Of a DNA stretch of 64,000 nucleotides, positions 855 to 63,962 are shown one piece after another (positions within the stretch are counted from its first letter, which is position 1; each line of letters begins with the position of its first letter). Made by a program: the position numbers and the translations under genes. The notes beneath the pieces were generated by a model, which saw only the letters and a list, made by a program, of their open reading frames with translations, was not told the DNA's origin and did not search any database. The stretch spans positions 1-64,000 of the forward strand of contig NZ_FRBU01000012.1 in the NCBI RefSeq assembly GCF_900142695.1, written 5' to 3'. The DNA is from Flavobacterium xanthum (GTDB lineage: Bacteria; Bacteroidota; Bacteroidia; Flavobacteriales; Flavobacteriaceae).

Positions 855-1760
855 TTAAATTATAGCCTGTTTCACCAAACTCATAATATATTCTAAAAAT
901 ATTGTATCTATAACAAAAACTTCATAATCACCATTACCCCAGTGCCCAATTTCAGAAACATCTCTCACTATTTCTTTAGGGTCATCTAATAGCCCTTTCT
1001 TCATGTTTATAAATATCCTAATTCCTTTTTTAGTGATTACAATATCTGAAATGTTTTTATTCTTTTTGAATGCGATATATAGTTTTTTAGGAACAATTTC
1101 AATATCATCAGCCAAATTCAAAATTGCATTTTTAAAGGTTTCATATAATTCAATTATTTCTTCTGGATATCCTTTTGTATGATCTTCTTCAGTGTATACT
1201 TTGATTTCATCCGTTACCGCTTTTATGATACCATTTTGTTGGGTGAGCGGCTTGATGCTTTCAGCTGATTTGGTTTTTTTGATAGGGTTTATGCTTATCA
1301 AATCATTTTCATAGCGTTTTATTTCCCATAGTTCAATTGCAATATCTTTGAAGTTGGTGGCTAATCGCTGGTTTTCGGTAAAGCTAGGAGAAACAAAAAC
1401 AACCCGTGTTTGCGACCAGTCAATTTTACTGCTATGTAATGTTTTTTGAAGGGTTTCGTTGTAACACAATACAAAATCTGCCTTGTTTTCCAGCATTAAA
1501 CTTAAATAGGTAAATCCTTGATCGACAACACTCACATTTTTATCTCGCTTGTATTCAATAATAATAAAGGCATTTGATTGACTATCATAAGTTAGCGTGT
1601 CAATACGTTTTCCTTTTATGCTAAATTCTCTTTTTACCATTTCTAAACCTGTAATTTGAAATAGGTTCTGTTCAAACAACGTTTGTATTTCTTTTTCTAG
1701 TTTAAAGGGCTTTTCTTTTAGAGTTGAAAGCTGATGATTATTGAGATGGTAAAGATTCAT
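855..1760 (-). CDS. PD-(D/E)xK nuclease-like protein (NucS/DUF91-like N-terminus, DUF5655-like C-terminus)
   Basis: This 301-residue protein has an N-terminal nuclease-like fold with Asp54 (RIDTLTYD) and a Glu69-Tyr70-Lys71 triad in IIIEYKR, the expected spacing of a PD-(D/E)xK site. The C-terminal 110 residues (from about TKGYPEEIIELYETF) resemble the DUF5655 domain often found behind such nucleases. It is the last gene of the minus-strand defence operon, 38 bp after hsdR. Proteins of this kind often accompany type I restriction systems. An accessory DNA-end or restriction nuclease role is inferred from the fold and position. The catalytic residues look intact. Confidence 0.7.
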   Translation of the reverse strand: MNLYHLNNHQLSTLKEKPFKLEKEIQTLFEQNLFQITGLEMVKREFSIKGKRIDTLTYDSQSNAFIIIEYKRDKNVSVVDQGFTYLSLMLENKADFVLCYNETLQKTLHSSKIDWSQTRVVFVSPSFTENQRLATNFKDIAIELWEIKRYENDLISINPIKKTKSAESIKPLTQQNGIIKAVTDEIKVYTEEDHTKGYPEEIIELYETFKNAILNLADDIEIVPKKLYIAFKKNKNISDIVITKKGIRIFINMKKGLLDDPKEIVRDVSEIGHWGNGDYEVFVIDTIFLEYIMSLVKQAII

Positions 1761-1798: not shown

Positions 1799-4700
1799 TT
1801 AAATTAAATTCCTCTCAAAATCATCACATAATTGATTTAGAATATCCTTTGTTTCTCTCTTGAAAAACTCTCCTAAATCTTTATTCATTATGGTATATTT
1901 TCGATACAATTTATTAAAGTCTGAATAAATTTCATCTTGTGAGAATGCAGAACCACCATCTCTAATTTTTGCTATTAAGCGTTTACCTATATCGTCCGAT
2001 TTGATGAAACCAAAAAAGGTATCTATTTTACTTTCAAAATCTACAATCAATTCGGCTATAGCTTCTTCTTCTTGATTTCGTTTTTCAATTACTTTTAAAA
2101 TATTGTATTTGAATTTGTTTTCGCCGTATTCGCCATTAGGTTCTCCAAGCACCTTTAGTTTTATATCCTTAACTGCATAATCTTGTGGAGCAACAATACC
2201 TATTTTGTTATCAAAATATATTTCTACATCATCAATAACTTCATTGTCTTTGTTGATTTGGCTGTAAATAATATTGAACTTACGCCAGAATTGTAAAAAT
2301 AGTTCTTGGCTATATTTTTTGTCTAGTTCAATTACAAATTCTATTAGATTTAATATTTTGAAATACGCACTAACTATTTTTTTAAGTTTCTTTGCTTCTT
2401 TCTTTTGTGTAGTTATAAATCGTGTAAAATCATTATCAATTGCTAAAATGATTTTTATATCTGCATTAGTAGTATTGTATTCTTGAAAGGATTTGAAATT
2501 TTTTATAAATAAATCATTCTCTTTTAATTCTTTCAAATAAATTTCTAATTTCTCTTCGTCTCCTAATGGGTCAAAGTCTGAAACTACTACATTACTAAAA
2601 TGTTCAAAAGCTAATTTGATGTTTTTTACATTTACATTTTTATAAGACAAATCAATAATCTTGCAATCGTTTTTATATTTGGTTGTTCTGTTTACTCTAG
2701 AAATAGTTTGAATAGCGTTGATACCTCTAATTTCTTTGTCTAAAAACAAAGTATGTAATTTAGGTTCATCAAATCCAGTTTGCAATTTATCAACTACTAT
2801 TATTAAACCATTTTTAGCCAATTTAAAATTTTGCAAGACTTGTTTTTCATTCAAGCCATCATTAACACTATTACTAGTTGGATGGTCTTGACTGTCGGAA
2901 TACACAATATAAATTGGCGCATCTTTGAACCTATCATATTTCTTTTGTTCAACTAATGCTTTGTATTGCTTGTCAATTAATCTTTTGTATTTAATGGCAT
3001 TTGGAATAGATGATACTGCCAACATTGCTTTAGCTGTTCCTCTAATGTTATGATATACTGTTGTTACTAATCTTTCGGAAATGAATTTTGCAATAGCTTC
3101 AATTCGTTGCGGATTGGAATATATTTTCTTTTTACGGATGGCATATTTTTTACCTTCATCATCTATTCCAGTATCGGTATCGTCAGGGATTTCTTCATAA
3201 CCCATTGACTTTTCAAAACCCTCTAATTCATTTTCGGGAATTTCGAAATACATTTTAGCAGATACCGGCACAATCCCTTTTATTGGATTTAAAATAAAAC
3301 CATCTTCAATGGCTTCTTTCATAGTATAGCTGTCAAATGGTATCCATATTTTCTCGGCTTCGGCATATTTATTATATTCTCCAAATCGAGCTAATGTATG
3401 ATCGCTTGGAGTTGCAGTAAAACCAATGATTAAATTCTTCTTGTTAGCTGATGATTGGTATTGTTTGTTATTATCAAAACTACTTTGCAATTCATCAAAA
3501 ACACTAATCATTTCTTCGTGTTGTGCTCCGCTATTGCTTCTATGGATTTCATCAATTAGAAATGCAATCCTTAATTTTGAAAGCTTTGTAGTAACCTCAT
3601 CATCAAGAATATCTTTAACCGTTGCAAATTTTTGAACATTTACTACAATTACTCTTTTATCACTACTTAAAGCAGTCATAAAACTTTTTTTATCTGAAGC
3701 TTCTAGAAACATTCCTTTTTGAATATTCATATTATGAAGCATTGTATCTAATTGGTCACGAAGTTGTAACCTATCTACAACCAACATTACTTTATCGTAA
3801 ACATAGTTGCCTTCTTTGCGATAATCTTTTAATTGTAATGCTGTCCAACCAATAATGTTACTTTTTCCAAATCCTGCTGCATATTGCAATAATAATGAAT
3901 AGACATTTTTATTGTTTTGATACTTTAACCTTTTTGCAATTAGTTCTTTTATTTGGGTTTCTCCAATACCTTTTGCTTTTAACTCTTTTTCGAGTTTGGT
4001 AATAAAATAATCAGGTTCGCTTTCGTGTTCTAAAAACTCATTGATTTTATTTATTATTTTATCTGTTCCGAACTTTTGCTTTGGTCTTGGACTTATTAAT
4101 CTCCCATCATTGTGCTTATATTCTTTTACGTTACTACCTTCTTTTTTAACTAATTCACGCTCAATAAAATTGTAATAAAGAATTTCTTTCTCAATCATTT
4201 TTTTATCATACAATGCCTTAAAAACCTCTTCAAACTTATGTAGTTTATCGGCTTCTTTGTTTAAAAGCGGATAAGGTTTAAAATCTTTTAAAATCTTCTT
4301 ATTGTAATTTTCAAAATCATAATCTCCAGTAACAACTGTTGCTTTTATTTCTTCAAATTGATTGGAAATATTTCTGATAACGTAGGTTTCATTTATATCT
4401 GTTGAAGTGATGTGAATTGCTTTTTCAAATATTTTTAGGAAATCTTTTTTGATACTTTGAGATAAATCATTACCATCGGCAATTTGTAAATATTCTTGAA
4501 CTGCTGAAAGGTAATCTTTAGCTACTTTTTTTCTGCCGTTGGTTTTAGCATTTTGATTGTTCCAATTGCTTTTTAGTTCACTATACCCAAGAAAAATACC
4601 ATTAAGAAAAAAGGATAAATCAGGACGAAAAGAGAAACGAGGTTTACCATCATATTTGAATGTATAAGGCAACTCCTGAACTATTGAAAATATATTCTCG

Positions 4701-5065
4701 TCAAACAATTTATCTTCGTGGGTTTCGCTTCCGCTTGGATAAAACAAATGCAACTTTATTCCCTCGAAAGTAACTGACTTATTGGTATTAATAAATAAAG
4801 CCATATTCATTGACGACTTTACTTTTTCGTCAAGAAACAAAGTAATAGCATTCATTAACTCCTTTTCGTTATTGGAAAATTTGCGTAACAATTTTTTATA
4901 ATTGTCTTTGTTTAATGACGTTTCAGAAATAAACTGCTTTAAATCTTCGTTAATAAAGAATTGAGCTGAAACCGTATTGGCTTTAGCTTCTTTGTATTGT
5001 AAACCATCTGGACGCTCACAAAAAAAGTGTACTAAATATTTGTCTTGTAAATCGAGTTCGTTCAT
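1799..5065 (-). CDS. hsdR: Type I restriction enzyme, R subunit (HsdR)
   Basis: This is the motor and nuclease subunit of a type I restriction-modification system, which translocates DNA with ATP and cuts it when HsdS-HsdM finds an unmethylated site. The N-terminus carries a nuclease site: PD at 148-149 and ELK at 163-165. A superfamily 2 helicase core follows, with a Walker A-like AAGFGKSN (about 396-403), DEIH (505-508) and a motif VI-like region SRVNRTTKYKND. At 1,088 residues it has a usual HsdR length and no break. It is separated from hsdS by the Kiwa genes, starting 3 bp after kwaB stops. With hsdS carrying a stop codon, this subunit probably has nothing to direct it. Confidence 0.92.
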   Translation of the reverse strand: MNELDLQDKYLVHFFCERPDGLQYKEAKANTVSAQFFINEDLKQFISETSLNKDNYKKLLRKFSNNEKELMNAITLFLDEKVKSSMNMALFINTNKSVTFEGIKLHLFYPSGSETHEDKLFDENIFSIVQELPYTFKYDGKPRFSFRPDLSFFLNGIFLGYSELKSNWNNQNAKTNGRKKVAKDYLSAVQEYLQIADGNDLSQSIKKDFLKIFEKAIHITSTDINETYVIRNISNQFEEIKATVVTGDYDFENYNKKILKDFKPYPLLNKEADKLHKFEEVFKALYDKKMIEKEILYYNFIERELVKKEGSNVKEYKHNDGRLISPRPKQKFGTDKIINKINEFLEHESEPDYFITKLEKELKAKGIGETQIKELIAKRLKYQNNKNVYSLLLQYAAGFGKSNIIGWTALQLKDYRKEGNYVYDKVMLVVDRLQLRDQLDTMLHNMNIQKGMFLEASDKKSFMTALSSDKRVIVVNVQKFATVKDILDDEVTTKLSKLRIAFLIDEIHRSNSGAQHEEMISVFDELQSSFDNNKQYQSSANKKNLIIGFTATPSDHTLARFGEYNKYAEAEKIWIPFDSYTMKEAIEDGFILNPIKGIVPVSAKMYFEIPENELEGFEKSMGYEEIPDDTDTGIDDEGKKYAIRKKKIYSNPQRIEAIAKFISERLVTTVYHNIRGTAKAMLAVSSIPNAIKYKRLIDKQYKALVEQKKYDRFKDAPIYIVYSDSQDHPTSNSVNDGLNEKQVLQNFKLAKNGLIIVVDKLQTGFDEPKLHTLFLDKEIRGINAIQTISRVNRTTKYKNDCKIIDLSYKNVNVKNIKLAFEHFSNVVVSDFDPLGDEEKLEIYLKELKENDLFIKNFKSFQEYNTTNADIKIILAIDNDFTRFITTQKKEAKKLKKIVSAYFKILNLIEFVIELDKKYSQELFLQFWRKFNIIYSQINKDNEVIDDVEIYFDNKIGIVAPQDYAVKDIKLKVLGEPNGEYGENKFKYNILKVIEKRNQEEEAIAELIVDFESKIDTFFGFIKSDDIGKRLIAKIRDGGSAFSQDEIYSDFNKLYRKYTIMNKDLGEFFKRETKDILNQLCDDFERNLI

Positions 5066-5067
5066 TT

Positions 5068-6009
5068 TTATAATTTATCTTTTGCAGGAGTCACATAATC
5101 ATAATCGGTTAATTGAGAATGAAGAAAATCATCATTCATCAATCGTAAAAAGAAATTTTGAGATTTTTTTGTGTCTAAAAGTATTTTTGTACCATCTTGA
5201 GAATAGCGAAACTCGTGTCCTAACGTTAGATGTCCTCTAACAAAATTCATAATAGTTTCTTTTGGAAGTTGAAAGACTGGAGAAGTAGTTGAAATTTTAG
5301 ATAATTTTCTAGCAAAAGCAACATCATTTATTCTTTCACTTAAAACTTCAATGTTTTCAAGAATTTGTAAAGCACTTATGTTCTCTATTGATGCTGTTGC
5401 TTCATTAATTATTATATTTCTAAACTCGTAGTGGCGTTCTAGTATGTCTATATTATTTATATAAATAACAGCTTCTATTTTTAAAACATCTATTTTACCA
5501 TCAATTCTTAAAAATTCCTCGTCAATGCTTGTAAATTGTGTTTCATGACCTTTTATTAGATAGATTTTTCCTTGCTTAAAGAGATTTACCGACATTTGTT
5601 TTCTATAAAATAAAACATTGTTTGCATGGTCACCAAAATAAACAAAATATCCTTCCAAGTCCGCTAATTCATCCAAGTCAAAAGAGAAGTATGGTATTTG
5701 ATTTTGAGGATTAGTTATTTCCTCAAAAAAATTAAATACTCCTGGTGTTTCTTCTAAATCATATTTATAAAAAGCATGAATTCTATCGTCCGCAGCAGAT
5801 AAATTAAGTAGGGCTAAATCTTCATTTTGAATAATTGAATTTAAAGAATTTTTATATGAACTTATTATTGTAGTTTTAACGTTCTCAATAATATTTGCTC
5901 TTTTCAAAACATAATTATTTTCTGCCTTCAAAAGAAAATATACATTAATTCCAATCCCTTCCATTTCGCAAATGGAGTGTAACTTCTCTTTAATCTCTTC
6001 TAAATTCAT
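5068..6009 (-). CDS. kwaB: Kiwa antiphage protein KwaB (DUF4868)
   Basis: This 313-residue protein has the length and motif pattern of KwaB/DUF4868: an AFYKYDLEE segment, a central FYRKQMSVNLF stretch, and a C-terminal FLRLMNDDFLHSQLT followed by a Tyr-Asp-rich tail. In characterised Kiwa systems the membrane protein KwaA senses phage attachment or injection, and KwaB is its cytosolic DNA-binding partner that blocks phage replication. Here kwaB starts 3 bp after the kwaA frame and ends 2 bp before hsdR. Kiwa is thus nested within the type I operon. The reading frame is intact, but its partner kwaA is split by an insertion sequence, and transcription from hsdM must cross that element. The family call rests on recalled motifs, not a search. 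Confidence 0.78.
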   Translation of the reverse strand: MNLEEIKEKLHSICEMEGIGINVYFLLKAENNYVLKRANIIENVKTTIISSYKNSLNSIIQNEDLALLNLSAADDRIHAFYKYDLEETPGVFNFFEEITNPQNQIPYFSFDLDELADLEGYFVYFGDHANNVLFYRKQMSVNLFKQGKIYLIKGHETQFTSIDEEFLRIDGKIDVLKIEAVIYINNIDILERHYEFRNIIINEATASIENISALQILENIEVLSERINDVAFARKLSKISTTSPVFQLPKETIMNFVRGHLTLGHEFRYSQDGTKILLDTKKSQNFFLRLMNDDFLHSQLTDYDYVTPAKDKL

Positions 6010-6012
6010 ACT

Positions 6013-6218
6013 TTATATTTTTTTAGTGAAATATACTTTTTCGGAAATCATTAAATATTTAACTTTATCTCCTTCCTTAATTTTATCCTTTGTAATAAAT
6101 ATACTGCACGAAAGTAAAGAATTGTTTGTTTCAGCTCTGTAAATATGAAACCCCAATAATGCAAAAGAGGGATTTGAATAAAATAATTCTGTTTTAATAA
6201 AAATTGCTCCCATTATTA
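6013..6218 (-). pseudogene. kwaA: kwaA 3' fragment, cut off by an IS3-family element
   Basis: This is the C-terminal part of the Kiwa membrane protein, beginning MGAIFIKTELFYSNPSF and ending VYFTKKI (about 66 residues). The frame stays open for nine codons into the insertion sequence (to 6240), but those residues come from the element. Removing 6219-7537 plus one copy of TATTA joins codon for codon to the 5' fragment (LLVI-MGAIF), giving a single 186-residue protein. That fits a KwaA with several N-terminal helices and a cytosolic tail. Independent translation from the internal ATG at 6213 is possible, but it would lack all membrane helices. Confidence 0.75.
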
Positions 6219-6268
6219 TGTTTTGACCCCTATAAAACAAGAGTACTATTTTAAATTTCGATTTTTAA

Positions 6269-7165
6269 TTAAGCGGTTAATTTTTTCATTTCTATTAGAT
6301 GTTTATCCGAGTTCCATTTCTCCATTGGAGTGATTCTTCCTAGGAGTCCATGAAGTCTTTCATTGTTATAAAAAGAGACAAATCGTTTTAATATCTGCTG
6401 AACCTCTCCAAAAGTTCGATAATCGAACCTGGAAAACACTTCCTTCTTCAAGATTCCATGATAGGCTTCTATATGAGCATTTTCTTCAGGTGTTGCGACA
6501 TGGGTAAATTCTTGTTGAACACCTATTAACCCTAAATATTCACGGACGCTTTTAGCTATAAATTGACTTCCATTATCACTTCTAATAACAACGCTTTCAG
6601 GGTAGTTATATTCGTCAAAAAGTTGGGATAGTAATTCTATAACGTGTTTTTGCTTTATGTTGAAAGAAAAATAATCCTTTAAAATTCGTCGTGTATGAAC
6701 ATCAATTACAGATAATAAATATGCATTTTTACCAACATTTGGCACCCATACCATTTTAATATCCATTTCTAAACATTGCAATGGTCTAGAAGTATAAACT
6801 TTCCTAAATTTCACAAACTTACGTCCAGAACCACTTCTGTTAATTCTATTCTCGAGTTTTAAAAGTCCTTCTTCTTTCATAATTCGGTACAGTTTTTTAT
6901 GATTTATTTGGTAGCCATCTCTATTTAGATACTTGGTAATCAACCGATAACCACAATCTATAAATTCATGTTTTAAGATTTTTTTAATAGATTTTACAAC
7001 ATCTAATTGACTAACAAAACCATTTTTATGATGAAATGTTACTGCCGTAGGATGATTGCCTTTCTTACCAAAATTTGGTTTTCTATAATAACTACTGCTA
7101 ATTATACCAACCATCTTTATTATCTTAGCCTTGCTACATTTATGCTTTTGATAAATAGAGTTCAC
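6269..7165 (-). CDS. IS3-family transposase, OrfB (DDE integrase domain)
   Basis: This is the catalytic half of the transposase. Its DDE residues appear in order: LEMDIKMVW, IRSDNGSQF and HIEAYHGILKKE. The N-terminal HTH_21-like segment (LKHEFIDCGYRLITKYLNRDG) is also visible. The listed start is a GTG; the frame is open further upstream, across an A10 run on the coding strand at 7196-7205, just after the orfA stop. IS3 elements usually make an OrfAB fusion by -1 frameshifting, and the overlap here fits that, although I could not place the slip site exactly. The protein looks intact. Confidence 0.92.
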   Translation of the reverse strand: MNSIYQKHKCSKAKIIKMVGIISSSYYRKPNFGKKGNHPTAVTFHHKNGFVSQLDVVKSIKKILKHEFIDCGYRLITKYLNRDGYQINHKKLYRIMKEEGLLKLENRINRSGSGRKFVKFRKVYTSRPLQCLEMDIKMVWVPNVGKNAYLLSVIDVHTRRILKDYFSFNIKQKHVIELLSQLFDEYNYPESVVIRSDNGSQFIAKSVREYLGLIGVQQEFTHVATPEENAHIEAYHGILKKEVFSRFDYRTFGEVQQILKRFVSFYNNERLHGLLGRITPMEKWNSDKHLIEMKKLTA

Positions 7166-7203
7166 TAAATCTTTCTTGGATCGGATGTCCCAAACTTTTT
7201 TTT

Positions 7204-7476
7204 TTAAAGCTCCCTTTGTACCTCTAATTCTATTTCTTTATTGCTCAGTAGCTTGCGTAGAATCCGATTTTCCTCTTCTGCATCTTTCAGCTCTTTGCTT
7301 TTAGTGTCATAGGTGACTTTTAAGCCAGCCTCGCCTTTGTGTTCGTACTTCTTCTTCCAGTTATATAAACTTGCCGTACTCACGCCAAACTTACGGCATG
7401 CTTCTACAATACCAGTATCCTCTGAAGCAGCTAGTATTTCTAGCTTCTGAGCTAAAGTCCATTTCTTGTATTTCAT
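7204..7476 (-). CDS. IS3-family transposase, OrfA (helix-turn-helix)
   Basis: This 90-residue protein has an HTH_Tnp_1 domain (KWTLAQKLEILAASE, then GVSTASLYNWKKKY), followed by a leucine-zipper-like coiled coil (ELKDAEEENRILRKLLSNKE). It binds the IS ends and supplies the N-terminal half of the OrfAB transposase. It is the upstream partner of OrfB and ends just before an A10 run. No defects are seen. Confidence 0.9.
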   Translation of the reverse strand: MKYKKWTLAQKLEILAASEDTGIVEACRKFGVSTASLYNWKKKYEHKGEAGLKVTYDTKSKELKDAEEENRILRKLLSNKEIELEVQREL

Positions 7477-7537
7477 ATCTCAAATATATAATTTTGAAAT
7501 TTAAAATAACACTCCGAACTATTAAGGGGCTAAACTA

Positions 7538-7897
7538 TATTACTAGTAATACTGTCAACAAAATCAATCCCCTAATAGTTTTAAAATCAAAAGAAATTAG
7601 TGATATAATGGTCATCAACAATGCAAAATATTCATAATTTATATTTTCAATTTTTAAAATCTCAACAGGAATATCCAAATCTCCTTTTAACTTATTTTTA
7701 AATTGATAATAGAATAAACCACCTAATAGAAGAAAAATAAAACCTCCAAAAGCAATGCAGTTTGAAATAGTTATTAAACTTGAAAATTGCACTAATTTGA
7801 ATTCTTTAGCAAAAGAAAATGGAATATCTACCGTTACTATAATTAGTAAAAGGAAAAAAATCCAAAACGACATTATAAATAGTTTGATTTTATTCAT
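7538..7897 (-). pseudogene. kwaA: kwaA 5' fragment (membrane part of Kiwa protein KwaA)
   Basis: These 120 residues contain about four hydrophobic segments: near 5-25 (FIMSFWIFFLLLIIVTV), 40-65 (ISNCIAFGGFIFLLLGG), 90-102 and 108-120. This matches the multi-helix N-terminal half of KwaA. The frame now ends at a TAG made by the IS border (7535-7537). The gene starts 4 bp after hsdS stops. Its missing C-terminus lies beyond the IS at 6013-6218, in the same frame once the element and one TATTA are removed. The truncated product would keep its membrane helices but lose the cytosolic tail, so Kiwa is probably inactive here. Confidence 0.75.
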
Positions 7898-7901
7898 CAG
7901 T

Positions 7902-9179
7902 TTAATTTACTTTTATTTTACCTGTTACGGCATCATTTATTAATGTTTTACGTAATTCTTTCAGCGTTTGAATTTGTGTATTGATATTTGAAACTATTTT
8001 ATCAATTGTTTGGGTTTTGGTATCTAAATATTTGGCAATTTCTGTTTGTTCCCTTAAAGGTGGAAACGGACAAGGAAAATTATTTAAGATATGAGGATTT
8101 AAATGTGGTATTCCCATTCCTGTTGGTATTTGTTTCAAAACATATTCAATATTATCTCTTAAATGAAAGAAATATTTAGATGATAAACTTTTATGAAAAT
8201 CAAACTTTGCAATTGTAGAAGAAATGAAACCTTTTTTTGCTTTCAAAATTTCGCCAACTCCAGCACCATCCCAAATAATAATAATATCTTTTTCATCGGC
8301 TAACAAAGATTTATCAGACGAATAACAAAAATTATTAAACGTGACAGTATCATTTCTTAAATAATCTAATGAAAGATTTGGCAAACTATTCTCAAAATGC
8401 TCATCAAAGAAATCAAGATTTTTTCCTTTAATTGTTTTAGCAATATTTTTCAATCTCTTCACTTCCCAATGTTCCGGAATTTGACCAATCCAATCAATGC
8501 CGCTATCTTTCAACTTTACATCTTTATCTAAACCTTTGCAAACGGTTTCGTTAATAATGCTTTTTCTATATTCTTTGTAGTAATTGGCTTTTTGCGTCAG
8601 TAGGTTTATTTTTTTGTCAATGGCTTGGGTTTTGGTATTAAGAAAATTAACTATTTGACTTTGCTCTTTAATTTTTGGAAAATAAATAAATAAATTTTTA
8701 ACAGCATCTTGATTTATATTTGGATCTTTTCTCGCACCATCTGCAAAAATTTTCCAACTACTTCTGAAGAATTTTAAGAAATATAAAAAGTATTCCGAAT
8801 TCAATTTATTACTTGGTAAAATTGCACATACAGACTGATTAATAGTTGAAGCTTTTTTTAAAATACTGTTTTTCCCAATCGTTCCAAAACCACCATACAT
8901 TGCAACTAAAATAGTGTTTATTGGTAAAAATGACACATTACATTCTTCTACAGCAATATCTGTAATTTTATATTCAACTTCAAATAATTCTCCATCATTT
9001 AAATCTGTAGTCCTAACCCAATTATGTATACCTTTCGAATAATATTTTTTTGTTTGACTGTGAGGAGTTGTACCTGACTTTGTTTTAGCCAAATCTTTTA
9101 CCCTTTTAACTTCCCAATCGTTTGGAATATCACCTAACCAATTTATTTCTGATGATTTCTATTTGTCGTACTTAATCAT
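7902..9179 (-). pseudogene. hsdS: Type I restriction specificity subunit HsdS with in-frame stop at codon 7
   Basis: HsdS chooses the target sequence for both methylation and cutting. Two target-recognition domains are visible, each opened by the classic WLGDIPNDWEVKR or WIGQIPEHWEVKRLK signature and each followed by a coiled spacer (LNTKTQAIDKKI; LDTKTQTIDKIV). The natural start is ATG 9179-9177, which overlaps the hsdM stop as ATGA. Six codons later (MIKYDK) the frame meets TAG at 9161-9159, where relatives have a Tyr codon, then continues unbroken to 7902. The next start in frame (TTG at 9092) would drop the first domain's N-terminal helix. The subunit is thus probably non-functional or made only by readthrough; a sequencing error is the other explanation. 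Confidence 0.83.
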
Positions 9180-11260
9180 ATTGCTAATTCTTTTTCAAGG
9201 TTAGCTAAATCATTTTCTAATTCCATTAAATCGGCAGAAATTTCAATAATATTTCTTAACACCTCTGGCTTGTAGAAAACTTTATTGAAATTAATTTCAA
9301 CGCCAATACTATTTTCTAAATATTCAAATGGTTTGGTTACATATTTTGCCATAAAATCGGCAATGTATTTTTGGTTTGTCTCCTCAATTGGGCTATATGG
9401 AATTACCTCATAATCTTTTTGCAAGTCTTTTGTGAGTTCAGCAGTTACCAAAATATGTTCTGCTTTGGTTTTAGTTGCTTTTTTATAAGAAGATTTAATA
9501 ACTATTTTACCATTACCTAAAAAGCTCTCCTTTTGCTTTTTGTCTTTTACAACAATACTTTCTTTGTTATTATCATAGGTAAATGAATTGCCTTGATTGT
9601 CAAATAATATAAAGGCATCATCTTTATACTCAATACTGTTTACAAGAGCTTTATAATGATTTTCAAAATAATCTGATAAGCTTGAATAGGCTGTTTTATC
9701 AAATTCGGTTATTTCGGTAGTGTTTATGGCTTTCATTCCATTTTCTTTGAAACTATCCAAAACCGCAATAGTTTTTACATCAATTTTAATGCTCTTTTCC
9801 TCTTTTACTTCGCCATCTTTAGATACTTTGTTTGGCATTTCAATAGCATTACCAAAATCATCAACATTGGTAAGAATTATGCTTTGCTTGTTATAATAAA
9901 AGTACCATTTATCAAATACTTTACTAAACTCATTTGGTTTAAATTCAGTTAGCGCTTTTACAATGTCTAATCTATTTTCAACGCTCATTTCCTTACGCTT
10001 TTTACCTTTACTTTTCTTTAAAGGCACAAACAGATCGGCTGCATTAATTAGCATTACTTTGTCTTTTCTTTCGGCTACTTTATTTTTATTGAAAATCCAC
10101 AAATAAGTATAAATTCCAGTATTGAAAAATTCATCTGTTGGCATTTGAATTATAGCCTCAACCCAATCATTATCAAAAATATATTTTCTAATATTGCTTT
10201 CACCACTTTTGGCATCGCCACTAAACAAAGCAGAACCATTATGCACTACAACACCTAAACCTGTATCAGATAATTGAAAAAGGTTGTGTTGTGCAAATAA
10301 AAGTTGCCCGTCTGATATTGCCGGTAATGCTACAAAACGTTCTGTTGTGTCATTGTAAATATCTTTTTTATAACCATCCCACGGAATACCGTGAGGTGGA
10401 TTTGCAACTATGATATCAAAACGTTTTTCAATAAATGAAATATTGGTTAATGTATTTCCATAACGAATATCACTATCGTTTCTAAAACGACTTTCAATTT
10501 TAGCTAAAGCAAATAAACTATCACTCCAATCTTCGCCAAATGTTTTAGTTGGTCTTTTGTATTTTTCTTTAATTTTATCTTCAACTCCAAAAAGTAGATT
10601 TCCTCCGCCACACGTAGGATCATAAATCGTTAAAAAGCTATCGTTGTCCTCAATTTTTGAGAGAATAATATCTGTAATAAGCCAAATAATATCATCTGGC
10701 GTATATTGTTCTCCAGCCGTTTCAGCAGAAATATCAGCCCATTTTCTTTTAATGTGTTCTTCTAAAGTTGTAATTTCAGAATTATTGAATGGCGTTAAAT
10801 CAATCTCACTCCAAGTTTGAACTGTTTCAAATAAAATACGTTTCTTTTTTAACTGTCCACTAATACCCGAAATATCCAAAAACTTTTCCTCTTCAGTTCC
10901 TTTATCAACTCCTAATAAATATTTTGTTTCTGGGTCAAATGCTTTTAAATAAGCGTGAAAATCAACATCAAAAGCTTTATCATTTTTACAAATGTCTTTT
11001 AGCGTTTTATTTTTTCTGATTACAAAATCGTTATATCCTAGACCTTCTAATTGAAACATTTCTATAAAATCTTCAATATCAATATCTCCAATTTCTTCTT
11101 TCAGTCTTTTAGCTTCTCTTACTAATCTACTTTCTACCATTAGAAGAGCGAAAAAAGGCATCATAAATTTTGGGAAATCACTTTGTTTTATACCTGATGC
11201 AATTAATAAATTTGCTGTTTTCCAAATATCACTTTCGTATTTTAGTATGTTTATGCTCAT
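9176..11260 (-). CDS. hsdM: Type I restriction-modification system, M subunit (HsdM)
   Basis: This N6-adenine methyltransferase subunit modifies the host's sites together with HsdS. The S-adenosylmethionine motif DPTCGGGNLLFG is at 214-225 and the catalytic NPPHG at 287-291. The N-terminal helical HsdM domain is present. The 694 residues run a little longer than common HsdM because of an extended C-terminal region ending in a coiled coil (LMELENDLANLEKELAI). It is the first gene of the minus-strand defence operon and overlaps the true hsdS start by 4 bp, showing translational coupling. The frame is intact. Confidence 0.92.
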   Translation of the reverse strand: MSINILKYESDIWKTANLLIASGIKQSDFPKFMMPFFALLMVESRLVREAKRLKEEIGDIDIEDFIEMFQLEGLGYNDFVIRKNKTLKDICKNDKAFDVDFHAYLKAFDPETKYLLGVDKGTEEEKFLDISGISGQLKKKRILFETVQTWSEIDLTPFNNSEITTLEEHIKRKWADISAETAGEQYTPDDIIWLITDIILSKIEDNDSFLTIYDPTCGGGNLLFGVEDKIKEKYKRPTKTFGEDWSDSLFALAKIESRFRNDSDIRYGNTLTNISFIEKRFDIIVANPPHGIPWDGYKKDIYNDTTERFVALPAISDGQLLFAQHNLFQLSDTGLGVVVHNGSALFSGDAKSGESNIRKYIFDNDWVEAIIQMPTDEFFNTGIYTYLWIFNKNKVAERKDKVMLINAADLFVPLKKSKGKKRKEMSVENRLDIVKALTEFKPNEFSKVFDKWYFYYNKQSIILTNVDDFGNAIEMPNKVSKDGEVKEEKSIKIDVKTIAVLDSFKENGMKAINTTEITEFDKTAYSSLSDYFENHYKALVNSIEYKDDAFILFDNQGNSFTYDNNKESIVVKDKKQKESFLGNGKIVIKSSYKKATKTKAEHILVTAELTKDLQKDYEVIPYSPIEETNQKYIADFMAKYVTKPFEYLENSIGVEINFNKVFYKPEVLRNIIEISADLMELENDLANLEKELAI

Positions 11261-17625: not shown

Positions 17626-18279
17626 ATGAATGCAAATCACAACACAAAATTTATCGCTTTTTCTTCTCAAAAAGGAGGTGTCGGAAAAAGTACGTTTACA
17701 ACATTAGTTGCAAGTACATTGCACTATCGATTAGGTCACAACGTAGCCGTCTTTGATGCCGATTTTCCGCAACATAGTTTGATTAAAATGAAATCTCGTG
17801 ATCTGGCTATGGTTATGGAAAATGAGCATTTGAAAAAACTAGCCTACAAACAATTTACCACCATCAACAAAAAAGCCTATCCCATTCTACAACACAAAGC
17901 GGAAAGCGTATTGGAGGCTGCTGAGGAATTTTTAAATACTTCTGATGTACCAATTGATGTCCTGTTTTTTGATCTCCCTGGAACGGTGAATACTCCTGGT
18001 ATTCTGAAAGCTTTGGCAGGAATGCACCACATTTTTACGCCAATTACGGCTGATCGTTTGGTTATGGAAAGCACCCTTATTTTTACGCAGCTGTTGCAAG
18101 ATGTAATTATGAAAAAAGGAGCAACTTCTATAGAAACTATCATTTCATCCTGTTTACCTGTGTTAGCTAAATCAAGGATTTGTAGAGCTTTTGCAATGCG
18201 TTCCCAACTACGAAAAAGTGATGCTGCATGTTCTTCACCTATTCTTGATTTCAGTTCGTCCTCATCCGTATATTCATAA
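17626..18279 (+). pseudogene. traA: traA (ParA-type ATPase), truncated after about 172 codons
   Basis: This is the first gene of the Bacteroidetes tra operon, a ParA/MinD-like ATPase. A deviant Walker A KGGVGKST opens it (residues 16-23), and DVLFFDLPGT is the second nucleotide motif. Family-like sequence runs to KKGATSIETI (18141). After that the frame continues for about 45 residues through the opposite strand of a ParB-like gene, giving a serine- and cysteine-rich tail unlike any ParA. The normal C-terminal third, and the traB-traD genes expected next, are absent. The junction lies at about 18138-18146. Confidence 0.72.
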
Positions 18280-18611
18280 ACTGGTAATTGTACAAAAGTT
18301 GTTTTTGCTTCTGAAAGTCTAAATCTTCCAGGCATTTGAAGTGCTTTAACTGCTGCACATCTTCTATTTCCGTCTCGAACTGTAAACTTTCCCTCAGAAT
18401 TTTTTATAACCCATAAAGCTTTATCTTCATAGAATTCATTTCTAAAGGCAATTGATTTAGCAATTTCTTCTGCAGCTTCTTCAAAAAGTAAATATTCAAT
18501 TAAGTCCTCTTCTTTTTTACTACCATTATACAACTCACCAAAGCGAGGGTTATTAATATCTAATTCTAAATCTTCTAAATTGACAAAAATTAAGTTTGAT
18601 CTTTTTTGCAT
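18140..18611 (-). pseudogene. ParB-like nuclease-domain gene, 3'-truncated
   Basis: On the minus strand this frame encodes a ParB N-terminal-like domain. It opens with LIFVNLEDLELDINNPRFG and has the signature VRDGNRRCAAVKAL. Native-looking sequence ends near LANTGKQDEM; the frame then runs on to 17877 through antisense traA, which is not real protein. Both genes are therefore cut at one shared junction near 18,140. Such stand-alone ParB-like proteins occur in defence and mobile loci. A working protein is unlikely here without its C-terminus. Confidence 0.65.
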
Positions 18612-18808: not shown

Positions 18809-19498
18809 TTATTTTATTATTCCCTCTATTTTCTCCATTAACATTTGAAATCTTTCCTCTCTAATAAGTGGATGTATGTGCATGGCTAAAATTTCTTCTG
18901 CTTGTGGATGGTTTTTAAAGGTTGTAAGTTCTTCCTTTATATATTGTTTTACATCATCTTCACTTGCTAATATTTCTTCAACTATTGTTGTTCTATTGTC
19001 AATCAAATAGATAATATCTTCGTAGTCGTGGCTTCCGTAAAAGTCATTTTGTCCTCTATCTTTAAATGCTTCTAATTTGGTAGCTAAAAAATAAGGTGAT
19101 GGTAATACGTTAATTTTAATTCCTTCTGGCAATTCTATTTGTTGTAGGTATTTGAATCCTGGTTTGTACCATTTATTGGATACTCCAATGCTACTATCAT
19201 CAGCAGGCATAATGTCTATGGCAATATCTTGAAATTTATAAGAACAAATAGAATGTCCCTCAGGATCTGGATAGAAATTTAGGTCTGCCAATCGTTCCTG
19301 CATCTGTGTCCATTCGTAATAATTGGCCAAATTAATAGTCATGTCAATATCAGTAGTCGGACGAATTTCTTCCGCAGCAGGATCATCGGTATACAAGCTA
19401 ATTACTGCTCCACCAATGAACACCATTTTTTCATTAAGTTCCTTCAAACCCTTGGCTACTTGCGCTACTAAAGCGAGATTGATTATTTTATTATACAT
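18809..19498 (-). CDS. Nucleotidyltransferase, AbiEii/toxin-like
   Basis: This 229-residue protein has the nucleotidyltransferase core: MVFIGGAVISLY (GG motif) and a DxD in RPTTDIDMTIN, followed by an acidic strand IAIDIMPAD. It overlaps the upstream regulator gene by 8 bp, which is the layout of AbiE-type toxin-antitoxin or abortive-infection pairs. In those the enzyme modifies tRNA or another target and the partner represses the operon. The substrate is unknown here. It sits in the inserted block that replaces traB-traD. Confidence 0.65.
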   Translation of the reverse strand: MYNKIINLALVAQVAKGLKELNEKMVFIGGAVISLYTDDPAAEEIRPTTDIDMTINLANYYEWTQMQERLADLNFYPDPEGHSICSYKFQDIAIDIMPADDSSIGVSNKWYKPGFKYLQQIELPEGIKINVLPSPYFLATKLEAFKDRGQNDFYGSHDYEDIIYLIDNRTTIVEEILASEDDVKQYIKEELTTFKNHPQAEEILAMHIHPLIREERFQMLMEKIEGIIK

Positions 19499-31670: not shown

Positions 31671-31820
31671 ATGGAACAGGAAGACAAGAGCTTGATTGAT
31701 GGAAAGATAGAGGAGTTAAAGTTTGATATTGAGAAGCTAAATGAACAGAAATTCGTAAATTTACTGATTGAAATTATTGTTTCTATTACATTAAATGAAT
31801 TAAATGAAAAGAGCGATTAG
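31671..31820 (+). CDS. Small 49-residue protein coupled to the recombinase gene
   Basis: A strong Shine-Dalgarno (AAAGGAGGT) lies 5 nt before this ATG. The frame encodes an acidic helical peptide starting MEQEDKSLIDGKIEELKFD and ending in a hydrophobic stretch (NLLIEIIVSITLNE). It ends at TAG 31818-31820, overlapping the recombinase start by 17 nt in another frame, so the two are probably translationally coupled. No family is recognised. A regulator or directionality factor for the integrase is possible but unproven. Confidence 0.6.
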   Translation: MEQEDKSLIDGKIEELKFDIEKLNEQKFVNLLIEIIVSITLNELNEKSD

Positions 31821-33360
31821 ATACTTAAGATTTAGTCAGTTGGGACAAAGTAATGGTTCCATTGAAAGACAGGAGCTTTATACGGATCAATGGTTGAAAT
31901 TTAACAATGTTGAATTAACAGATACTTTTATTGATCGAGGGAGAAGTGCTAAGACATTTGATAGACCAGACTTTATTAAACTTCAAGAGTTTATTAGTAA
32001 ACATTTTAAAACTGTGGACTATCTTTTGGTAGATCAAATGGACAGATTTAGTAGGGATGCTGGAGAAGCAATGAGTATGGTAAAGATGCTTCAGCGAAAA
32101 TACAATATTCAGGTCGTCAGTGTAACCGAAGGAATTACGTTCGACTATGATACTCCAGGAAGTTTTTTCAGAGCGGGATTACAACTATTGCTTGCTGAAG
32201 AGGATAATATTAACAGGAGTATTAAAATTAGGGGAGGACTCTATACTGCTAGAGCAAAAGAAGGCCGTTACATCGGAATTAAACCACCTTATGGTTATAT
32301 AAAGTTTGGCGAAGGAAAGGAACGAAAATTAATTATTGAAGAAACAGAAGCAAAGGTTGTCAAGTTTATGTATGATGCTTATTTACATGATACACCACTT
32401 TATATAATTAAAGGACAAGTATTTAAATTAGGATTTAAAGCAAGAGGAAATACGGCTGTTGAAAGAGTATTGACTAATCCTGTGTATGCAGGTATGTTGC
32501 AGGTTCAGGGATATAAAGAGTATCCCGGGGGAATTTTTCCAGCTATACACGAAGCTATTATTGATAAAACTACTTGGCAATTGGTGCAAAATAAGATGAA
32601 AAAGCCTGAAAAAGTTAGAGCAATATTAGATGAAAATTTACCACTTCGCGGAATCTTAAAATGTCATTGCGGAAACCTACTCACAGGTGCTCCATCAAGA
32701 GGGAAATCAGGCAAGTATTTTAATTATTATAAGTGTAAGACTTCAAAGCATAATAATATAAGTGCAATAAAAGCCCATACACAGCTTGCTGAAATATTAG
32801 AATTAATGAGTCTCCCAGAAAATACTTTGTCTGAAATAAAAAAGTCTTCTAGTGTGGCAATAGAAGAAAATTTAAAATCTAACAAACTGATAATAGAACA
32901 AAAGAAACTTTTGCTAGAAGAGACTCAAGAAAAGATGTTTTCTGTAGAAGAAAAGTGGATTAAAAATGAGATTTCAAAAGATACTTATGATAGATGGTAT
33001 GCTACTTATAGCAGTACTATCCATTCCTGCAAAGATGCAATTGAGCGTTTAAGTAAAGTTGAAACACATGCATTCAAAATTTTACATAAAAAATTACACT
33101 TACTCGGAGATCTAAAATCTATATATGATAATGCAAATATTATCCAAAAAAGGGAATTTGTCAAATTGGTGTTCGACAGCAATTTATACTATCAGGAAGG
33201 TGTCTATCGAACACCTACCATGATACCGATAATGTCTCGGAATCACCTGTTAATGCAGGAAAAAGGCTTGTTGATTTACCATAAAAAAAGGGATGATTTT
33301 CCAATCATCCCATCCAGTGGAGTCGCCGAGAATCGAACTCGGGTCCAAACAAGCAACTAA
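31804..33360 (+). CDS. Large serine recombinase (integrase of the element)
   Basis: This 518-residue protein has a resolvase domain with catalytic Ser11 in YLRFSQLGQ and an active-site DRFSRD (80-85). A Recombinase domain follows (GIKPPYGYIKFGEGK, RVLTNPVYAGMLQVQGYK), then a zinc ribbon with CHC and C ligands (LKCHCGNLLTG ... YYKCKTSKHN) and a coiled coil. It would integrate and excise the element at ssrA. Its last 16 or so codons read through the reverse strand of the tmRNA gene (SGVAENRTRVQTSN), so its C-terminus is made partly from the target site. The tmRNA terminator also lies inside this gene. Confidence 0.9.
   Translation: MKRAIRYLRFSQLGQSNGSIERQELYTDQWLKFNNVELTDTFIDRGRSAKTFDRPDFIKLQEFISKHFKTVDYLLVDQMDRFSRDAGEAMSMVKMLQRKYNIQVVSVTEGITFDYDTPGSFFRAGLQLLLAEEDNINRSIKIRGGLYTARAKEGRYIGIKPPYGYIKFGEGKERKLIIEETEAKVVKFMYDAYLHDTPLYIIKGQVFKLGFKARGNTAVERVLTNPVYAGMLQVQGYKEYPGGIFPAIHEAIIDKTTWQLVQNKMKKPEKVRAILDENLPLRGILKCHCGNLLTGAPSRGKSGKYFNYYKCKTSKHNNISAIKAHTQLAEILELMSLPENTLSEIKKSSSVAIEENLKSNKLIIEQKKLLLEETQEKMFSVEEKWIKNEISKDTYDRWYATYSSTIHSCKDAIERLSKVETHAFKILHKKLHLLGDLKSIYDNANIIQKREFVKLVFDSNLYYQEGVYRTPTMIPIMSRNHLLMQEKGLLIYHKKRDDFPIIPSSGVAENRTRVQTSN
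33283..33311 (-). terminator. Intrinsic terminator of tmRNA, inside the recombinase gene
   Basis: A perfect 9-bp stem (GGGATGATT at 33290-33298, AATCATCCC at 33303-33311) with a TTCC loop is followed, on the minus strand, by seven Ts. It ends transcription of ssrA a few bases after the mature 3' end. It is coding sequence for the recombinase on the other strand. Confidence 0.78.
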
Positions 33361-33711
33361 AAAGCTTTCTACGCGTTTATTTCCTGATTGAGTTTTCGAT
33401 AGTGTGCTAGGCCAGAAACAGCCACACGCTACTTATCTTCTTAATTTTGAAATCCACCCGAAGCTCATGGAAATCTAGGTTTATTTTTACGGTTCTCCTA
33501 AACTGAACGCCACAAACCAAGGCTTTCAAGGAGAATCCAGCTTTCCTATCTGATAGGAACGTGGCTTAATCGTACTATAATTCGGATTATGCAGCTAAAG
33601 CGTAGTTATTTTCGCCGTGTAAAATGGTAAGATCTTATATTTACGAGCAAGGTCTCAATGCTCGACGTGCTTACTTATCAATTCGACTTGCTGTCAAAAC
33701 CAGTCGACCCC
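33318..33711 (-). ncRNA. ssrA: tmRNA (transfer-messenger RNA)
   Basis: The tRNA-like ends pair: the 5' end GGGGTCG (33711-33705) with the 3' end CGACTCC plus discriminator A (33318). A T-arm GAGTTCGATTCTC is visible. The tag frame at 33616-33587 reads GGC GAA AAT AAC TAC GCT TTA GCT GCA TAA, giving (A)GENNYALAA, the Bacteroidetes form. It rescues stalled ribosomes and tags their products for proteolysis. It is complete at 394 nt and is the integration target of the neighbouring element. Confidence 0.95.
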
Positions 33712-61917: not shown

Positions 61918-62583
61918 TTATTCTTTCTGTAGCTTTTCAATTAATTTATAAATGTGTGAACCTAATTTTTTAGGATATGTTTCATTGTTATTATCTAATT
62001 TTTTAGCTATTTCAGTAGCCGCTTTTGTCAAAGGTAAAAATAGTTCCGGATTTGGGTTTTTATTATAGCCAATACCTTGTAAATCGCTTAGAACTATATC
62101 GATATGATTTTTATTTTTATTGAACTTAGCGTTTTCTAAAAGCTTTTTTTGTTCTTCATCATCATACTCAGAAATATCTTTTAAGTGCATAATCAGCCAT
62201 ATTTCAAAACAAGGATTACTCATTGCTAAGAAAAAGTTGTTCTCTTTATTACAGTCTATTACTAATTGATTGAAATCTATTTTATGAATAGTTTCCCAAT
62301 GGTCTCTATCAACAATAAGCCAAAATTCGTCTGTTTTTTTAAAGGGGTAATTTGCTTTAGCTTTTTTAAGTAATCTTTTAACACTTAGTGGGTCTGTTCC
62401 AGTATTGACCTCTCTTTCTAAAGGAATAATTTCTATTATTCCTGAATCATTAAAAAACTCAGACATTCTAAAATCATTGAAGTATGTGACTTCAGTTTTT
62501 TGACCTTCATAGGATAAGATATACAATTTTTCCGCATCTTTAAAACTGCCTTCCCTCATTAATGGTATTGGTTCTCTTGGCAT
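61918..62583 (-). CDS. rloB: RloB-family TOPRIM-like protein (AbiLii-like)
   Basis: This 221-residue RloB protein has Glu26 in LSYEGQKTE and D92-R-D94 in WLIVDRDHW, the residues of a TOPRIM-type metal site, and the family segment SNPCFEIWLIMHLKDI. It lies 2 bp after rloA. RloA/RloB are linked to restriction loci and match the AbiL layout, where an ATPase controls a TOPRIM effector. The effector's target is unknown. Confidence 0.83.
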   Translation of the reverse strand: MPREPIPLMREGSFKDAEKLYILSYEGQKTEVTYFNDFRMSEFFNDSGIIEIIPLEREVNTGTDPLSVKRLLKKAKANYPFKKTDEFWLIVDRDHWETIHKIDFNQLVIDCNKENNFFLAMSNPCFEIWLIMHLKDISEYDDEEQKKLLENAKFNKNKNHIDIVLSDLQGIGYNKNPNPELFLPLTKAATEIAKKLDNNNETYPKKLGSHIYKLIEKLQKE

Positions 62584-62585
62584 AC

Positions 62586-63962
62586 TTAGTTGATTTGTGG
62601 GATAACAGTTAAATTATCTCTATTGCCAAACTTAGGAACACCTTTATATCTACCTAACAAATAATCACGTCTGACTTCCTTGTCAAATCTAATGCTGTAG
62701 TCTTCTAAAGAATGAAGTCTACTAGCTCCTGACTTGTCTTTAACGACAAACCATATTTCATCTTTTCTTAATAACTTTTGAGTTAAAAGAGTTGATTCGT
62801 GACTTGCAACGATAAACTGACTATTAACATTTTTACACTTGGATAGAAAAAAATCAAATAAGTCATATATCAAATTAGGATGTAAACTTCTTTCCATTTC
62901 GTCAATTACAAAAACGTTATTTCCTTTGAAAAAATCAATTATTAATGGAATTAAATCCATTATTCTTCTTGTTCCGTCTGATTCATCTCTTAAATCAAAT
63001 AACTCATAGCCTCCTCCAGAAATTTTATGTTTTGTTTTTAAAAGCTGAGCTCTTATTGAGCGGTCTTTATTCAAAGAAATAACATAATATTTGTCATCTT
63101 GGATGTTAGAAATAAACGCATTAGTTTTTTCTGATTTATCTCCCACCAAATCATTCTCAATATCTTTTAATATTTCACTTGGAATATCAATTTTTTCTAT
63201 GTCAACTTCTTTAAATTCTATTCCGTCAATACCAGTGTCAAAATACCCAAGCATTTCAGTAAATACTTTATTTAAATCGGTGTCTTCTAATAATTCAAAC
63301 TTCTTTCCAACATTTTTTGAATTTGGATATATTACAGTTAGGGCATTTTGAAACCAATCAATAACATTGATAAGATCGTCAATGTTCGAAACATTTTCCT
63401 TTACTTTTCTTGTTCTAATTTCAGATAAGAATAATTGATTTTTCTGAGTTCCTTTTGCGGTAAATTCTAAAAATTGTTTTTCCTCCGTTTTTTTGTTTTT
63501 GCTAAGTATTGCTTCAAGGTCAAATTCTTTTGTTCTATTCTTATCTCTAGTGAATATTTTTTTTTCCGATTTTTTTGAAATTTCGTAAAGCCATTCTTCT
63601 ATTATTTCCTTAGAATTAAAAATAAAACCGTAAGCATAATTTTTATCTTTGTGCTGTATTTCGTATTCGATTCTTGAATTATGTTTTAATTGCTTTTTAT
63701 CTAATTTAAAATTACTATATTTTATAGGTTGTTCCGCCTTGTTTCCTTTTAAAATAAGCTCTTTTCCGAATTCGATAGCTTTAATCAAATTGGATTTTCC
63801 AGATGCATTAGCACCATAGACAACTGCTGTTTTAAGAGCGGAAGTTCCTTTTATTGATTTGGATTTATGATGTGATTTTAGAGTTCCTTTTCCTGGGATA
63901 AGGGAAAATACTTCTCTGTCTTTAAATGACAAAAAATTCTCAATTGTAAATCTAATTAGCAT
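62586..63962 (-). CDS. rloA: RloA-family AAA ATPase (AbiLi-like, AAA15/OLD-like)
   Basis: The 458-residue ABC-type ATPase has Walker A GANASGKS at 50-57 near an N-terminal MLIRFTIENFLSFKD lead, a signature-like SGGGYELFDLRDESDGTRRIMDL region, and Walker B VFVIDEMERSLHP. It probably senses an infection cue and activates RloB. The gene is complete, its ATG lying 38 bp from the window edge. Confidence 0.85.
   Translation of the reverse strand: MLIRFTIENFLSFKDREVFSLIPGKGTLKSHHKSKSIKGTSALKTAVVYGANASGKSNLIKAIEFGKELILKGNKAEQPIKYSNFKLDKKQLKHNSRIEYEIQHKDKNYAYGFIFNSKEIIEEWLYEISKKSEKKIFTRDKNRTKEFDLEAILSKNKKTEEKQFLEFTAKGTQKNQLFLSEIRTRKVKENVSNIDDLINVIDWFQNALTVIYPNSKNVGKKFELLEDTDLNKVFTEMLGYFDTGIDGIEFKEVDIEKIDIPSEILKDIENDLVGDKSEKTNAFISNIQDDKYYVISLNKDRSIRAQLLKTKHKISGGGYELFDLRDESDGTRRIMDLIPLIIDFFKGNNVFVIDEMERSLHPNLIYDLFDFFLSKCKNVNSQFIVASHESTLLTQKLLRKDEIWFVVKDKSGASRLHSLEDYSIRFDKEVRRDYLLGRYKGVPKFGNRDNLTVIPQIN

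Follow-up and report, generated by a model that had tools for sequence, protein, structure and literature searches.

The locus described here raises the question of why a two-gene Kiwa defence system should lie between the specificity and restriction genes of a type I restriction-modification operon. It is found in a 64,000-nucleotide stretch of Flavobacterium xanthum DNA (contig NZ_FRBU01000012.1, positions 1 to 64,000), referred to here as the window. On the minus strand the genes run in the order hsdM-hsdS-kwaA-kwaB-hsdR, followed by a gene that matches PDC-S18, a candidate defence family. An earlier note, made from the letters alone, had proposed this order with a further gene at its end and had placed the Kiwa pair between the specificity and restriction genes, and the gene identities and spacing bear out both proposals. 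We favor the reading, with a probability of about 0.68, that Kiwa in the hsdS-hsdR junction is one of several plug-in modules and that, in intact relatives, Kiwa and the restriction genes would be co-expressed and form independent, layered barriers.

Kiwa genes in the window

The features of the locus are as follows.

855..1760, minus strand: PDC-S18 candidate defence gene, 38 bp 3' of hsdR (PADLOC PDC-S18, E = 3.5e-138; DUF5655, HSDR_N_2)
1799..5065, minus strand: hsdR, type I restriction subunit, 1088 amino acids, frame intact (SWI2_SNF2, ResIII, T1R_D3-like; PADLOC REase_I, E = 1.3e-26)
5068..6009, minus strand: kwaB, 313 amino acids, frame intact (PF16162 [DUF4868], E = 3.5e-35, above cut-off; PADLOC KwaB, E = 6.9e-88)
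6013..6219, minus strand: 3' part of kwaA, within the open reading frame (ORF) 6240-6013 (PADLOC KwaA PDLC00219, E = 2.4e-23, profile positions 123-192; solved KwaA 124-193, E = 7e-8)
About 6220..7535, minus strand: IS3-type insertion element interrupting kwaA, its ends placed to within a few bases (terminal repeats, target duplication, transposase domains)
6269..7165, minus strand: orfB of the element, rve integrase core (PF00665, E = 4.7e-17)
7204..7476, minus strand: orfA of the element, HTH_Tnp_1 (PF01527, E = 3.9e-16)
7535..7897, minus strand: 5' part of kwaA, a 120-amino-acid ORF ending at the insertion element (PADLOC KwaA PDLC00219, E = 2.2e-25, profile positions 5-124; solved KwaA 9mrg 7-124, E = 9e-8)
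7902..9179, minus strand: hsdS, encoding the specificity subunit (start ATG at 9179, overlapping the stop of hsdM; codon 7 an in-frame TAG; remainder one open frame)
9176..11260, minus strand: hsdM, type I methyltransferase, 694 amino acids, frame intact (PF02384 [N6_Mtase], E = 2.4e-46; PADLOC MTase_I, E = 3.8e-110)

The intergenic gaps are 4 bp between hsdS and kwaA, 3 bp between kwaA and kwaB, and 2 bp between kwaB and hsdR, so that the gaps of 3 to 4 bp given previously hold for the first two junctions and not for the third. The 313-amino-acid protein had been named KwaB from DUF4868 motifs. This identity is confirmed by the PF16162 and PADLOC matches and by the solved KwaB chain 9mrx, which the product matches end to end (residues 2-313 on 2-313, E = 2e-34); together these rule out that the protein is something other than KwaB. 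In a 17-sequence alignment that includes the window kwaB, 64 columns are invariant. The motor domains of HsdR (SWI2/SNF2) were matched; for its nuclease, no HSDR_N match was found at E 0.1, and a PD-(D/E)xK-like stretch at residues 148-165 was seen by eye only.

kwaA is not a single continuous frame in the window. It matches the solved KwaA in two pieces only because an IS3-type element of about 1.3 kb splits it, and the two pieces cover consecutive stretches of the KwaA profile and of the solved KwaA directly 5' of kwaB. The earlier note had expected a rejoined KwaA to match Kiwa and had left the element behind the split undescribed; the identity stands, since the pieces, searched apart rather than rejoined, both match. 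The element has imperfect terminal repeats (26/38) and a target duplication of 3 to 5 bp (3 and 4 bp computed, 5 bp by eye) that is ambiguous in this AT-rich DNA. It is the sole close copy in this genome, where its other matches are at 26-29%. kwaA is continuous in a locus of Epilithonimonas hominis (L002 in our numbering of loci) and in others of the loci, L034, L041, L045, and L051 among them. The window copy is an interrupted Kiwa locus, not a complete one.

A second lesion, missed by the earlier note, lies in the adjacent hsdS. The in-frame TAG at codon 7 (9161-9159) stands just ahead of the first conserved stretch, K-x-S-x-I/V-x-W-x-G-x-I/V-P-x-x-W, which is common to the HsdS proteins of three other loci (L130, L132, and L002). 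That N-terminal stretch falls between the TAG and a TTG at 9092, which is the next of the usual start codons. In a genome scan, two PF01420 (Methylase_S) stretches lie in one frame, at 9125-8604 and 8477-7968. The genome has two other hsdS genes (operons C5 and C52), and since the adjoining HsdM proteins are only 24-30% identical to the window HsdM over the aligned part, rescue by either hsdS is unlikely. The frames of hsdM, kwaB, and hsdR are intact. With kwaA split and hsdS stopped early, the window copy, judged from its reading frames, is probably no longer functional in its entirety. For the same reason, a single transcript that provides modification first, a membrane-anchored defence next, and restriction last, as had been envisaged, is unlikely for this copy. 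Decay of Kiwa is not confined to the window, since in a same-genus relative that adjoins a type II system (L079) kwaB is broken by stops at 9424-10443.

At the 3' end of the operon, the PDC-S18 gene may be a second passenger. A HipA-type gene lies 5' of hsdM, together with a small helix-turn-helix-type gene recognised by eye. A search for the consensus of the Bacteroidetes-type promoter pattern found no match on the strand of the operon.

Recurrence, controls, and separate histories

The nesting is not unique to the window; L002 and the loci of a survey rule this out. KwaB scored above the PF16162 cut-off in draws from the class (8/395 genomes), the family (5/299), the phylum (14/395), and the genus (10/199), with further draws from the class of genome G821 (9/341) and the family of genome G927 (2/92). 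These draws share genomes, and that of the window figures in four of them. Removal of repeats and of the window left 34 KwaB loci in 33 genomes, all from the window genome's phylum, Bacteroidota. Flanks of up to about 10 kb per side, shorter at contig ends, were taken; their genes were labelled with profiles derived by iteration from these loci, with Pfam or PADLOC checks of many, not all, neighbours. A neighbour was called tight when it lay on the same strand within 60 bp or overlapped.

Kiwa was tight to type I hsd genes in 6 of the 34 loci and to any recognised restriction-modification gene in 12; at the other 22, no tight restriction-modification neighbour was recognised. The arrangements are listed with M, S, and R for hsdM, hsdS, and hsdR and x for an intervening gene.

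L034: R-M-S-kwaAB
L040: M-x-S-R-kwaAB, with hsdR in two frames
L041: M-x-kwaAB-R, where x (283 amino acids) is without a Pfam or PADLOC match; a different hsdS was not recognised at this locus
L045: M-S-kwaAB, with no downstream hsdR recognised
L051: M-OLD-like-S-kwaAB, other genes, then hsdR about 3 kb on
L052: M-x-x-kwaAB-S, with a borderline KwaB match (26.2 bits)
L043, L050, L084: type IIG enzyme just 5' of kwaAB
L047: type II, Eco29kI-type endonuclease
L077, L079: type II, near-copies, 84-88% identical

The survey for the hsdM-hsdS-kwaAB-hsdR order that the earlier note had proposed thus finds the same kind of nesting in relatives from other genomes. Outside the 34-locus sample, L002 has the order M-S-x-kwaA-kwaB-x-x-x-R with all gaps at or below 69 bp, and an Emticicia plasmid (L018) carries Kiwa without annotated restriction genes beside it. 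At least one methyltransferase gene stands 5' of kwaAB in 12 of 12 tight cases. kwaA lies directly 3' of hsdS in the window, L034, L045, and L051, and it is within 4 bp of, or overlaps, its upstream gene in these four and in L040 and L077. This closeness suggests co-transcription and perhaps translational coupling, both of which we infer from sequence. hsd genes are near without being tight in L039 and are divergent in L042. In L050 and L084 an SNF2-type helicase gene precedes the type IIG-like methyltransferase gene, and the arrangement of L043, L050, and L084 is perhaps an undescribed composite defence locus. Placement of Kiwa inside a bacteriophage exclusion (BREX) system at these three loci was considered and rejected, as type IIG enzymes are the top PADLOC match of the gene that precedes kwaA. 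An HNH-like ORF of 79 amino acids 5' of kwaA in L054 (E = 3.1e-5) and a single Mrr_cat match, which could not be placed within the Kiwa flanks, were left out of the restriction-modification count.

As a control, we used the 30 AbiEii loci with the highest scores, limited to one from each genome (70 of 138 genomes were positive), and 4 HamA loci, all that 128 genomes supplied (4/128), so that AbiEii makes up most of the control and its loci are the best-ranked ones. The same 60-bp limit was applied in stretches of 1,500 bp on either side, and genes after HamA were taken as HamB. Neighbours of 484 and 89 amino acids had no Pfam match, and three of 60-86 amino acids were left out of the search. 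Three of the 34 control loci were tight to restriction-modification genes (L095, HsdR-like; L101, HsdM; L115, HsdS), compared with 12 of 34 for Kiwa (Fisher two-sided p = 0.017); counting the near-copies L077 and L079 once gave 11/33 versus 3/34 (p = 0.017). Among the best 25 of 52 and 83 Pfam families, 120 Kiwa-side flank proteins from short stretches gave Methylase_S 4 times, HsdM_N twice, and HSDR_N once, and 113 control-side flank proteins gave HSDR_N twice and N6_Mtase once.

The KwaB tree has 36 rows: 33 of the 34 loci (L079 was excluded, its gene being broken), L002, L018, and the window. On this tree, in which some rows have long branches (that of L052 is the longest), 7 changes are needed for 8 type I loci, versus 7.4 with shuffled labels, and 12 for all three labels together, versus 12.1. 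The type I association has therefore been gained or lost repeatedly. Among the type I rows, the window and L002 form the sole sister pair; their KwaB proteins are 56% identical, and their HsdM (33%) and HsdR (29%) belong to different hsd families. L002 holds the closest KwaB among the loci examined, and the protein database holds closer ones, up to 93%; the few named database relatives are mostly from Bacteroidota, and one is from a Sphingomonadales metagenome-assembled genome. By these comparisons, Kiwa and this hsd operon have separate histories, and long joint travel of Kiwa with this hsd family was rejected because close relatives of each occur apart. The co-transfer suggested by the earlier note is plausible at present, given a serine recombinase at the end of a transfer-messenger RNA (tmRNA) gene in the window; a lasting partnership of the two systems finds no support.

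The hsd family of the window recurs in L130 and L132 (HsdM 56%, HsdR 54-55%). These two loci and the two other hsd operons of the window genome are arranged as follows.

L130, Planktothrix plasmid: M-(small gene and PemK/MazF toxin)-S-R, no Kiwa; a DUF2281 gene of 72 amino acids lies between S and R on the other strand
L132, contig from a viral collection: M-S-(PDC-S02 nuclease)-R
C5 (L128), second hsd operon of the window genome: M-S-(GmrSD pair)-(PDC-S02)-R, cargo at L128 7851-12339
C52 (L129), third hsd operon of the window genome: M-S-R, nothing inserted

L132 and C5 hold other cargo, L130 lacks Kiwa, and C52 has nothing inserted, indicating that the S-R junction takes varied defence cargo. 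By its gene matches, C5 gives the window genome a TgvAB-like embedding in addition to the Kiwa locus. Other defence genes embedded in hsd operons are already known from the accessible parts of three reports (PMC11411939, PMC12255303, and PMC12707154), and Kiwa is best read as a new passenger of the slot alongside PrrC, TgvAB, and DarTG2. We found no account in the literature of Kiwa within an hsd operon, and earlier reports may exist; the accessible parts of PMC11514479 and PMC11318856 contain none.

Some further observations concern Kiwa itself. One genome has two different Kiwa pairs, separated by about 11.5 kb (L080 and L081, G1173 contig 8), and a KwaB-like gene is present on small enterobacterial plasmids (4.8-11.5 kb), some of them from E. 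coli Nissle 1917. KwaB searches of viral contigs and of phage records gave no match, and the search for DNA-level relatives on plasmids gave just four short matches covering 1-3% of the query.

Proposed function of the nested arrangement

In other Kiwa systems, KwaA forms a tetramer in the inner membrane, and KwaB dimers attach to injected DNA, halting replication as well as late transcription, according to the accessible part of PMC12904381. By analogy with that literature, Kiwa at these loci would target injected DNA at the membrane irrespective of methylation, and restriction-modification would cut entering DNA without host methyl marks. Because restriction would act on unmethylated sites and Kiwa on entry whatever the modification, protection would be layered: a phage that evades restriction, whether by modifying its DNA or by anti-restriction proteins, would still face Kiwa. 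The locus adds membrane-sensing Kiwa to the list of systems inside restriction operons and supports the view that the hsdS-hsdR junction accepts cargo generally and is a place to look for new defences. The natural pairings with type I, II, and IIG enzymes offer a test set for packing versus cooperation in defence stacking. A bolder version holds that selection repeatedly put kwaAB just 3' of type I, II, or IIG methyltransferase or specificity genes, with the membrane fence buying the enzyme scanning time and protection being far more than additive; we consider it doubtful.

Several points weigh against the layered, plug-in reading. For type I genes alone, the difference from the control is not significant (6/34 versus 3/34, p = 0.48), and the Kiwa flanks were annotated more deeply than the control flanks, on longer stretches and with profiles partly built from them. 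Since AbiEii and HamA also adjoin hsd genes, the slot cannot be called Kiwa-specific. Co-expression at these loci is predicted from gene spacing, and phage protection from what is reported of other Kiwa systems. In the window, there may be a residual role of KwaB without KwaA, an unusual hsdS start codon, or a specificity subunit from elsewhere; solitary HsdS subunits acting in trans are described for other systems in the accessible parts of PMC11514479 and PMC11318856.

Pure defence-island packing, in which chance recombination set Kiwa beside hsd genes, would limit the meaning of the arrangement to shared mobility and a shared promoter. It is a tenable account, though not one that we favor. 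The scattered associations on the KwaB tree, clustered no more than shuffled labels, fit it well, as do the unrelated cargo in the same slot, the presence there of control genes, and the 22 Kiwa loci lacking a recognised tight neighbour. Chance is harder to reconcile with the tight same-strand junctions, three of which have overlaps of 1-4 bp (L045, L051, and L077) that suggest translational coupling, with the excess over the control, which suggests selection for co-expression, and with the invariable methyltransferase gene 5' of kwaAB in the tight cases. If Kiwa were instead wired to the restriction complex, it would fire once phage proteins disable restriction, as PrrC in the EcoPrrI locus is activated when T4 Stp inhibits EcoPrrI (PMC12707154, accessible part). 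The position of kwaA directly after hsdS in four loci would suit such a guardian, which we nonetheless judge very improbable: a cloned Kiwa pair is protective without a cloned restriction partner (PMC11514479, accessible part), a tight partner was not recognised at most loci, and the diversity of partners (type I, II, and IIG) argues against a single protein contact. Physical cooperation between Kiwa and restriction, or a PrrC-like link, is possible but unsupported.

For this isolate, it is somewhat probable that both systems are inactive, decaying passengers of a mobile element. The adjacent lesions in kwaA and hsdS point that way, although the intact hsdM, kwaB, and hsdR frames and the 64 invariant columns retained by kwaB mean that decay would be recent, and PMC11514479 (accessible part), drawing on other work, attributes to KwaB an effect that does not need KwaA. 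Since a dead locus here concerns this isolate, it is compatible with layered defence in intact relatives.

Probable carrier element and comparison with known systems

The carrier of the locus is probably an integrative conjugative element, as judged from the following two features and from transfer-type genes seen by eye only at 13-31 kb.

31804..33360, plus strand: serine recombinase, probable integrase of the carrier element (Resolvase, Recombinase, Zn_ribbon_recom)
33317..33711, minus strand: tmRNA gene, probable integration site (ARAGORN)

The recombinase gene overlaps the 3' end of the tmRNA gene, and no second copy of that end was found within the window. Elsewhere in the window, at 17626-18611, the tail of a ParA-like ORF overlaps an opposed ParB-like ORF by eye, followed by an AbiEii-like gene at 18830-19441 (AbiEii by profile match); by eye, the ParA gene looks broken by cargo insertion near 17626-18611. 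At 61918-63962, an ATPase gene and a small partner resemble the RloA/RloB type by eye. On the Emticicia Kiwa plasmid L018, an RloB-family gene lies beside an ATP-binding gene, near Kiwa.

The EcoPrrI locus has the gene order prrA-B-C-D. PrrC resembles Kiwa in being an extra defence gene in a type I operon (PMC12707154, accessible part); it differs in being a tRNA nuclease activated on inhibition of the restriction enzyme, a control that we did not find described for Kiwa in the accessible parts of the sources. Compared with the characterised Kiwa system (9mrg and 9mrx; PMC12904381, accessible part), the window has both genes, with an end-to-end match for KwaB and a two-piece match for KwaA; unlike that system, its kwaA is interrupted and the pair lies inside an hsd operon. 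DarTG2 lies between hsdS and hsdR in an E. coli defence island, at a site that its authors regard as a potential recombination hotspot (PMC12255303, accessible part). It shares with the window Kiwa the position and the two-gene cargo; unlike Kiwa, it is a toxin-antitoxin cargo with a dedicated upstream repressor, RptR. TgvAB, like the window Kiwa, is a two-gene defence pair in a type I operon, that of the Vibrio island VPI-2, and it occurs both inside and outside type I clusters and acts on phages with modified genomes (PMC11411939, accessible part). TgvAB is a GmrSD-type modification-dependent nuclease, whereas Kiwa, a membrane sensor with a DNA-binding protein, is another kind of system.

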